NCBI RefSeq assembly: GCF_900104045.1
Contig: NZ_FNIN01000001.1
Span: 310,001-374,000 of the forward strand
DNA from: Desulfonauticus submarinus
Lineage (GTDB): Bacteria; Desulfobacterota; Desulfovibrionia; Desulfovibrionales; Desulfonatronovibrionaceae
Direction: 5' to 3'
Length of the DNA: 64,000 nucleotides
The notes below the pieces were generated by a model. The model was not told the DNA's origin, ran no database searches, and was given only the letters and a program-made list of their open reading frames with translations. Shown here one piece after another: positions 7,921 through 10,774 of this stretch; within the stretch, counting starts at the first letter, position 1; each line of letters starts with the position of its first letter. The position numbers and the translations under genes are program-made.

Positions 7921-8805
7921 TTATAAAAGGCTTTTTTCTTTTAAAACAGCAATCAATTTTTCTTTATTTTGAGGCTGCATCTCTACTAAAGGCAAACGAA
8001 CCTCCATCTCAATCCTTCCCATTAAAGCAAGCGCAGTTTTTACTGGAATGGGATTTGTTTCTATAAACATAGCTCTGCATAAAGTTAATAATTCTATCTG
8101 AATATCACTAGCTTTTTCTAAATTACCTTTAAAAAATTCTTCACACAGCTGATGTGTCAGCTTGGGCACAATATTAGAAACTACCGAAATAACTCCTTTA
8201 CCACCTAAAGATAATAGAGGCAAAATAGTAAAGTCATCTCCAGAAAGTACAGTAAAATTTTTACCGCACGATTCAATAATCTCAGCTACCTGCCTTAGAT
8301 TACCAGAAGCTTCTTTTATTCCTATAATTTCTTTTACTTCTGTAAAAAGCCTTTTGGCAACTGCTGGAGTAATATTTAAACCTGTCCTAGATGGAACATT
8401 ATACACTACCATAGGAATAGAAACTTCTTTAGCTATTTCTTTATAATGAGCAATCAATCCATCTGGAGTAGGTTTATTATAATAAGGTGTAATTAAAAGA
8501 GCAGCGTCTGCCCCTGCATCTTTAGCAAACTTAGTTAATTCAATTGCCTCACGAGTAGAATTAGATCCAGCCCCTGCAATAACTGGGACTCTACCCTTAA
8601 CCTGCTCTACACATATCTTAATTACTCTTTTATGTTCCTCATGACTAAGGGTAGCAGATTCTCCTGTTGTACCACAGGGAACAAGACCATCTATTCCTTG
8701 TTCAATTTGCCATTCTATATGCTTTCTATAACTGTCTTCATCAATTTCTCCTGCTTTAAAAGGAGTGATTAAAGCAGTGATTGCACCTTTTATTTCCATC
8801 TTCAC
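7921..8805 (-). CDS. dapA: 4-hydroxy-tetrahydrodipicolinate synthase
   Basis: 294 residues. First committed enzyme of lysine/diaminopimelate synthesis: condenses pyruvate with aspartate semialdehyde. Seen: [14 protein letters not shown] near residue 45, the catalytic Tyr in YNVPSRTG near 134, and the Schiff-base Lys in [11 protein letters not shown] near 163. It is the last gene of a long minus-strand string and follows dapF after three bases, pairing two steps of the same pathway. Confidence 0.97.
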
Positions 8806-8808
8806 CTC

Positions 8809-9630
8809 CTAAATATTCTCCAATATTTTTTTATTTAAAAAACCTTTATACACTAATATAGTTTTTCCTTGAAGAAAAATTCTTTCACCTTGAAGAAAAA
8901 TTTTTAATTTTTCACCTCCACTAGTAACCACATTTACTTCTCTATTTAAAAGTCCTAAAGCAAATCCAACATATACACTTGCTGCTGCTCCTGTTCCACA
9001 GGCATAGGTTTCATTTTCTACACCTCTTTCATATGTTCTAAGCAAAATAAAATCTTTTTTTACAATCTGTACAAAATTTACATTAGAACCACTAGGACTA
9101 AAATAATCATGAAAACGAATTCTTCTTCCTATTTTATTTACATCAATCTCTTTTATATTCTCTGTAAAAAACACAACATGAGGAACACCTGTATTTACAT
9201 AATGAATATTAAAATCATTTTCATCTATAAAAATTTTAACATCCAATTTTAAATCTTTTGGCTCAGTCAGTTCTACTTTTACTTCATTTTCTTTTACTAT
9301 CTCTGCATGAATAACTCCAGCTTCTGTTAAAAAAGCCTGTTCCTTACCCGCAAGACCTAAATAATTAGCTAACCAAGCAGCACATCTAGCCCCATTCCCA
9401 CACATTTCAGCTTTAGTTCCATCAGCATTATAAAAATGCCATTTAAAATCTATCTCACCATTTCTAACCTCTTCTAAAAAAATTAACCCATCTGCTCCCA
9501 CTCCAAAACACCTTTGACATAATTTTTTTGCCCAAGCTGACATTTGAGATATATTTACAGGCACACTATTTAAATCAAATAAAATAAAATCATTGCCGCT
9601 TCCTTGCATTTTATAAAAAACTAAATCCAT
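8809..9630 (-). CDS. dapF: diaminopimelate epimerase
   Basis: 273 residues. Interconverts LL- and meso-diaminopimelate with two active-site Cys, both seen: CGNGARCA near residue 77 and ACGTGAAAS near 215. The start MDLVFYKMQGSGNDFI is typical. It lies two bases after the selenoprotein gene and three before dapA. Confidence 0.97.
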   Translation of the reverse strand: MDLVFYKMQGSGNDFILFDLNSVPVNISQMSAWAKKLCQRCFGVGADGLIFLEEVRNGEIDFKWHFYNADGTKAEMCGNGARCAAWLANYLGLAGKEQAFLTEAGVIHAEIVKENEVKVELTEPKDLKLDVKIFIDENDFNIHYVNTGVPHVVFFTENIKEIDVNKIGRRIRFHDYFSPSGSNVNFVQIVKKDFILLRTYERGVENETYACGTGAAASVYVGFALGLLNREVNVVTSGGEKLKIFLQGERIFLQGKTILVYKGFLNKKILENI

Positions 9631-9632
9631 TA

Positions 9633-10466
9633 TTATCTCATCCTTTTAACAATATCTTTTATCATCTGATCATCCTTAATATCATCACCTAATCCAAAAA
9701 CTTTCCAATAAATATTTTTTTTATAAATCCATTTTTTAGTTTTTAAAAAAGAAATATAATCTTTTATATCGACATAATTTACTGCCTTGCCTTTAGAATA
9801 TGGTCTTACCCATAATGTACTCTGATTATTAACTAATTCTCCAGAAAATCCAGGGCCATCTCCACTTCCAAATAGTATTTCTATTTCTTTAACATTATTT
9901 AATAGTTCTTTTTCCATATAATACCCTAATGCAGATATTACAATTATAGGAAGGTTTTTATACTTATATTTTATTTTATGATAAAAAGATGATAATTTTT
10001 TAGAAAATATCTTTATATTTTTCTTTTTAATAGTTGGCAAAACAATTATTACAATTTTTTTCTTTAAAAGAAAAAAATTTATATTTTCATCTAAATGAAA
10101 CCAGTTTTTAGGAAAATCAATAGAATACTTTTTAAAGATATTAAATTCTTCTTCATTTACAACACCTATGTCATATCCTGATAATAAATAAACTTTTTTT
10201 AAATCTTGAAAAAACTGTTTATTTTCCAATGCTTTATTGCATAAAAACTCATCAGGACCAAAAATAAAAAAAGTATTCTCTTTTCTTCTAAAATCAAAAA
10301 AACTTTTTCTCCTGGCTAAACCTCCAAGAGTTTTTCCCCCTCAAGCAGGACAAGGCTCTATCTTACATTTAGTATTTGCAACATAATATATTTCTGTGCC
10401 ACTAAATGCTTTAAACGGCCATGAGAAAAAAACTAAAATAAAAAATATAAAAATACTTCTTTTCAT
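9633..10466 (-). CDS. exported selenoprotein, UGA read as selenocysteine at codon 42 (UshA/metallophosphatase-like)
   Basis: If the TGA at 10341-10343 is read through, one frame runs 277 residues from ATG 10466 to the stop at 9633. It has a signal peptide (MKRSIFIFFILVFFSW, cleavage near residue 22), then the motif CKIEPCPAU, so Cys39 and Sec42 make a CxxU redox pair, followed by GGKTLGGLARRK. Later parts (LLSGYDIGVVNEEE, FGSGDGPGFSGEL, LWVRPYSKGKAVN) resemble bacterial UshA-like metallophosphatase relatives; this family call is from memory and uncertain. The metal-binding residues of true phosphatases were not found, so it may not be a phosphatase. An in-frame ATG at 10481 is an alternative start. 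A hairpin follows the UGA. Without readthrough the signal peptide would be separated from the rest. Confidence 0.75.
10309..10330 (-). promoter_or_regulatory. SECIS-like hairpin after the UGA of the exported selenoprotein
   Basis: Minus-strand stem of 7 pairs (CUCUUGG with CCAGGAG, one G-U) closing the 8-base loop AGGUUUAG. The loop G is 18 bases after the UGA at 10343-10341, inside the usual 16-37 base range for bacterial SECIS elements read by SelB. Paired by eye only. Confidence 0.55.
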
Positions 10467-10498
10467 CTTCTTATCAAACATTACTTAACATTCAATTA

Positions 10499-10774
10499 TT
10501 AACTATTAACAAAATCCTTTAAATTTTTACCAACTTTAAAAAATGGAAGCTTTTTAGGTCTTACCTCTACCTTTTCTCCTGTCTTAGGATTTCTTCCAAC
10601 ATAGCCTTTATACTCTTTAATTTTAAAACTCCCAAACCCCCTAATCTCCACTCTTTTTCCAGCAAGCAATGCCTCTCTCATAGAGTCAAAAAAAGTATTT
10701 ACAAAGTCACTTGCTTCTTCAGGAGTTAGATTCTTATCTTCTGCCAATTGCTTTATTAAATCACTCTTATTCAT
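10499..10774 (-). CDS. HU/IHF family DNA-binding protein
   Basis: 91 residues, exact family length. The EIRGFGSFKIKEYKG strand and the DNA-wrapping arm with GRNPKTGEKVEVRPKK are present, including the Pro at the tip. Such proteins bend DNA and organise the nucleoid. A GGAGG lies about 10 bases before the ATG. It stands between the MinD-like gene (58-base gap, the largest in this string) and the selenoprotein gene, so it may also have its own promoter. Confidence 0.95.
   Translation of the reverse strand: MNKSDLIKQLAEDKNLTPEEASDFVNTFFDSMREALLAGKRVEIRGFGSFKIKEYKGYVGRNPKTGEKVEVRPKKLPFFKVGKNLKDFVNS

Follow-up and report, generated by a model that had tools for sequence, protein, structure and literature searches.

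The 64,000-nucleotide stretch of Desulfonauticus submarinus DNA analysed here (the window) very probably encodes a genuine selenoprotein of family NF049981, in which UGA codon 42 is read as selenocysteine (Sec) by means of a downstream hairpin and which is exported, has a 5'-nucleotidase/SoxB fold and has a former metal site that has probably been turned over to redox or sulfur-transfer chemistry. The features on which this reading depends are given below, with the kind of evidence for each in brackets.

7921..8805, minus strand: dapA, 4-hydroxy-tetrahydrodipicolinate synthase, next in the cluster (profile matches, relatives)
8809..9630, minus strand: dapF, diaminopimelate epimerase, conserved downstream neighbour (profile matches, relatives)
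9633..10466, minus strand: UshA-like selenoprotein coding sequence, 277 amino acids and a TAA stop, TGA taken as Sec (profile match and relatives)
10309..10330, minus strand: SECIS hairpin CUCUUGG AGGUUUAG CCAGGAG, 7-bp stem and 8-nt loop (folding and shuffles)
10341..10343, minus strand: Sec42 codon TGA, motif C39-P-A-U42 (sequence and alignment with relatives)
10401..10466, minus strand: signal-peptide-like N-terminus, about residues 1-22, hydrophobic (judged by eye, predictor-free)
10499..10774, minus strand: HU/IHF-family DNA-binding protein, conserved upstream neighbour (IHF-beta models best, below cut-offs)

The recoded frame and its hairpin

Minus-strand positions 10466-9633 form a frame of 277 codons whose sole interruption is the TGA at 10343-10341, which bears out the original prediction that this TGA joins a signal peptide to a downstream frame. 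The remaining two frames of the same strand over the same stretch contain 28 and 34 stops. The residues around the Sec codon read TKCKIEPCPA-U-GGKTLGGLARR, and the predicted CxxU motif, Cys39-Pro-Ala-Sec42, is present and aligns with CPxU or CPxC of the relatives. The part beyond the TGA has 235 residues (43-277), or the 236 originally given if Sec is counted, and it has indeed no ATG near its start. The earliest codon at which it could start is a TTG near 10229, and a gene caller blind to Sec would therefore report a 198-residue stub. The claim that the selenoprotein is hidden stands for such gene callers only, since the family itself is already in NCBIfam as NF049981 and in a published table (PMC13188914). 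Reading the raw sequence thus uncovered a genuine recoded gene, and the in-frame TGA is almost certainly read as selenocysteine. A frame-wide look across the window for other C/U or G/U contexts gave two further candidates, neither of which was supported.

The hairpin was found exactly where a SECIS-like element had been proposed, with its stem beginning 11 nt and its loop AGGUUUAG 18 nt past the UGA, and no fold of the 49-nt region has a lower energy (-9.5 kcal/mol). It has the form of a SECIS-type hairpin, lying just downstream of the UGA and having a G in the loop; the loop resembles AGGUCU, the SECIS loop of E. coli fdhF. In order to assess its stability, we used synonymous-codon shuffles, in which the protein was fixed and the third-position GC of each gene was kept. 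The window hairpin had a z-score of -3.4, and 1% of the shuffles were equally stable. When dinucleotides were shuffled in a 56-nt stretch, slightly different from this one, the energy was not unusual (z -0.66), and the hairpin therefore rests on its position, its loop sequence and the codon-level test. Over the family, the mean z of the 30-nt region was -1.52 for Sec members (134 sites) compared to -0.57 for Cys members (14 sites), more negative values being stabler (rank test p 3e-5, with sites that are related and not independent). The same-genus relative L010 has a 7-bp stem with a one-base shift, a loop of GGUCUG and one pair changed from C-G to U-G. Over the whole family, RNAalifold found no stem shared by the Sec members; the hairpin register varies, and a competing hairpin arises from the LARRA codons in GC-rich members. 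All parts that the ribosome would need in order to read UGA42 as Sec, namely SelB, tRNA-Sec and the hairpin, are present.

Family, relatives and genomic setting

The joined protein matched NF049981, UshA-like (seleno)protein family 2, with 229.6 bits (E 4e-68; curated cut-off 140 bits) over profile positions 2-261 of 262; all 40 diverse members of our alignment matched the family too. This match, together with the fold and ligand alignment described below, upholds what had been a hesitant guess of an UshA-like family. The window protein resembles other members in its full-length match, CxxU motif, length and single Sec, and it differs from them by the usual divergence only, being an AT-rich member with 23-40% identity to the others aligned. 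NF041198, UshA-like (seleno)protein, was matched weakly (29.9 bits versus a cut-off of 275). It shares a Sec/Cys motif in the same fold type, but its motif is CxU instead of CxxU and its profile has 519 positions compared to 262. No Pfam family was above cut-off for the window protein, Thioredoxin_8 giving a weak match only. In a 2026 review table, NF049981 is listed with motif CxxU, one Sec and WP_420705249.1 and is marked as known from GenBank annotation, and NF041198 is listed with motif CxU (PMC13188914). The NF041198 kind was first seen in the GOS survey, as a COG0737 UshA-like CxU selenoprotein (PMC2398784). The kind of protein is therefore known, with the window protein as a further member; our literature searches found no functional study of UshA-like family 2.

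Homologues were found in 27 of the 61 nearest genomes, and TGA was present in 25 of the 26 listed with a match spanning the site, the exception being a C-terminal fragment from genome G057. The family cut-off was passed in 159 of the 297 genomes of the class. A DNA pattern scan of 84,980 species returned 91 stretches, with named records mainly from Desulfovibrionales and some from Syntrophaceae and others; as the pattern demands CPxU-G and GG.AR, Cys-only or motif-less members are beyond its reach. The closest named relative is from Desulfonauticus sp. 38_4375 (L197, the same place as L010). No relative was encoded by viral contigs. Residues P38, C39, P40, U42, G43, G48, G49, A51, R52 and R53 are invariant across the 40-protein set. 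In G057 (L034, L036) and in G286 (L091, L103, L105) the copies are disrupted by several stops or frameshifts; selA of G057 is broken too, which makes a poor sequence likely.

The suggested search for homologues with Cys at residue 42 yielded both Cys and Sec homologues. Cys replaces Sec as CPTCG in L081-L084, L086, L087, L090, L132, L169, L171 and L191, as well as in the divergent L101, and as CPVCG in L085, L088 and L089. On the tree, which has 18 Cys rows including three pairs that are duplicates of one protein, the Sec/Cys state changes about three times. In seven Solidesulfovibrio-type loci (L081, L082, L083, L084, L086, L087 and L090), a Cys copy and, directly after it, a Sec copy form a tandem pair beside HU. 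Such pairs may represent a division of labour or a Sec-to-Cys change after duplication. One member, L022 (1480-2388; 264 bits to the family), has kept Sec and lost the motif Cys and the second Pro (PIKAUQ), and the Cys-Sec pair is thus not absolutely required.

The predicted site between HU and dapF was confirmed, with an upstream gene of the HU/IHF family and a dapF ATG only 2 bases past the selenoprotein stop. Among relatives with enough flank, duplicates left out, the HU/IHF gene is directly upstream in 79 of 92, with a ParA/MinD-like gene there in 6 more, and dapF or dapA is directly downstream in 68 of 87. Most exceptions concern the second copy of a tandem or paralogues at other sites. 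We draw no defensible functional hint from the HU/IHF, dapF and dapA neighbours of the main copy, which are silent on redox. The same-genus genome G001 (L200) has the same order of ParA, HU, dapF and dapA, with about 100 bases from HU to dapF and the selenoprotein gene absent. Other Desulfonauticaceae-level relatives examined likewise keep HU-dapF-dapA and lack the gene. Eight genomes that lack it have selA (G001, G003, G004, G006, G007, G018, G020 and G026), so that the gene is dispensable and a loss of Sec use does not account for its being missing there.

Paralogues are found in other settings. At L160, L161 and L162 the order is Metal_resist, CcmF, TPR protein, family member and P-type metal ATPase, the TPR protein having a weak CcmH/CycH TPR match. 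The L189 paralogue is likewise near a P-type metal ATPase. The distant L188 is nearer to NF041198 and gives a match to the SoxB model (E 4.5e-17); the gene after it encodes a protein that combines a VKOR-like with a thioredoxin-like portion.

Predicted fold, lost metal site and function

The structure predicted from the 40 aligned proteins had a mean pLDDT of 90.6 and a pTM of 0.88, the Sec loop being modelled least surely within the mature protein (pLDDT 66, residues 41-50). Foldseek matched this model to the catalytic domain of 5'-nucleotidases/SoxB (E 4e-11), and VIA-align gave a Z of 22.2 for SoxB 2wdc and of 20-22 for 5'-nucleotidases and others over about 240 residues. The predicted model thus has a calcineurin-like phosphoesterase fold. 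The window protein shares this fold and the GGxARRAT motif with SoxB and the 5'-nucleotidases (UshA, CD73), but in the window protein the ligands are replaced, the C-terminal domain is missing and Cys-Pro-x-Sec is inserted in the first loop. At 277 residues it has no C-terminal substrate-binding domain, the alignment stopping at residue 320-370 of the 500-residue targets. According to the model and the fold search, the exported protein consists of the superfamily's catalytic domain on its own.

The usual metal ligands had been reported as not found, and an alignment with the true 5'-nucleotidases L106, L108 and L093 (hhalign 97%; same order, Solidesulfovibrio-type genomes) agrees with this. 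The binuclear metal ligands (D-x-H, GD, GNH, H and GHxH) were not recovered in the hhalign alignment: D36 corresponds to N31, H38 to K33, N121 to E104, H122 to E105, H221 to A179, H244 to G202 and H246 to G204. D89 of the GD position falls on D72 of the window protein, an Asp that varies within the family. Since these positions are replaced, the protein should not be a metallophosphatase. CPxU sits in the loop after strand 1, adjoining the first lost ligands, which suggests that the former metal site has probably become a redox or sulfur-transfer site; in the periplasm, it would now act through thiol/selenol chemistry. A periplasmic thiol/selenol redox protein is, in our judgement, the most likely identity. 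Indirect evidence for the redox side comes from the CcmF, TPR protein and P-type metal ATPase genes beside paralogues and from the VKOR/thioredoxin-like gene beside L188. We more tentatively suggest that a metal site converted to a selenium redox site serves periplasmic thiol control, perhaps of apocytochrome c or in metal stress, in a gene tightly linked to HU/IHF and dapF/dapA; this may be so, with the balance somewhat against it. To our knowledge, such a role is undescribed for either UshA-like selenoprotein family. The lost metal site, Sec/Cys exchange, tandem copies, fixed setting and paralogue neighbours together provide a first testable functional frame for the family.

Two other functions would seem compatible with part of these results. 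The protein may be a dead scaffold that binds a metal, haem or sulfur compound through Cys39/Sec42, for instance in the role of a chaperone for metal or haem, as the loss of the superfamily's metal ligands, the absence of the C-terminal substrate domain of 5'-nucleotidases and the Metal_resist, CcmF, TPR protein and P-type metal ATPase genes near paralogues would allow. We consider this unlikely, because Sec is usually kept by oxidoreductases for catalysis and because catalytic redox positions typically show such repeated exchange between Sec and Cys. Still less probable is a protein that has kept hydrolase activity of the SoxB/5'-nucleotidase type, in which Sec/Cys would belong to a rebuilt metal site or serve as the nucleophile (e.g. 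on sulfane sulfur or a thiosulfonate bond). The hosts are sulfate reducers, SoxB is the nearest solved fold by VIA Z and the distant L188 resembles SoxB, but conservation does not extend to the His/Asp/Asn ligand positions, the tie in Z favours SoxB no more than 5'-nucleotidases, and a shared fold is not proof of function.

That the TGA really ends translation or stems from an error in sequencing, leaving a pseudogene or a 41-residue peptide followed by a dead frame, we practically dismiss: the downstream frame without a nearby ATG and the broken copies in G057 and G286 would fit, but many genomes sequenced independently, with 25-40% protein identity, share this TGA, which also answers the suggestion of a misread TGT or TGC, nothing but Cys codons replaces it among the intact members seen, and the genome has the full Sec machinery. 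The components for which a search had been proposed were all found, namely tRNA-Sec (85.1 bits, over cut-off), selA (620 bits), selB (401 bits) and selD (329 bits). The selD gene of this genome (L046, G000 C16:22471-23394) itself contains one in-frame TGA, and its SelD is therefore probably a selenoprotein too.
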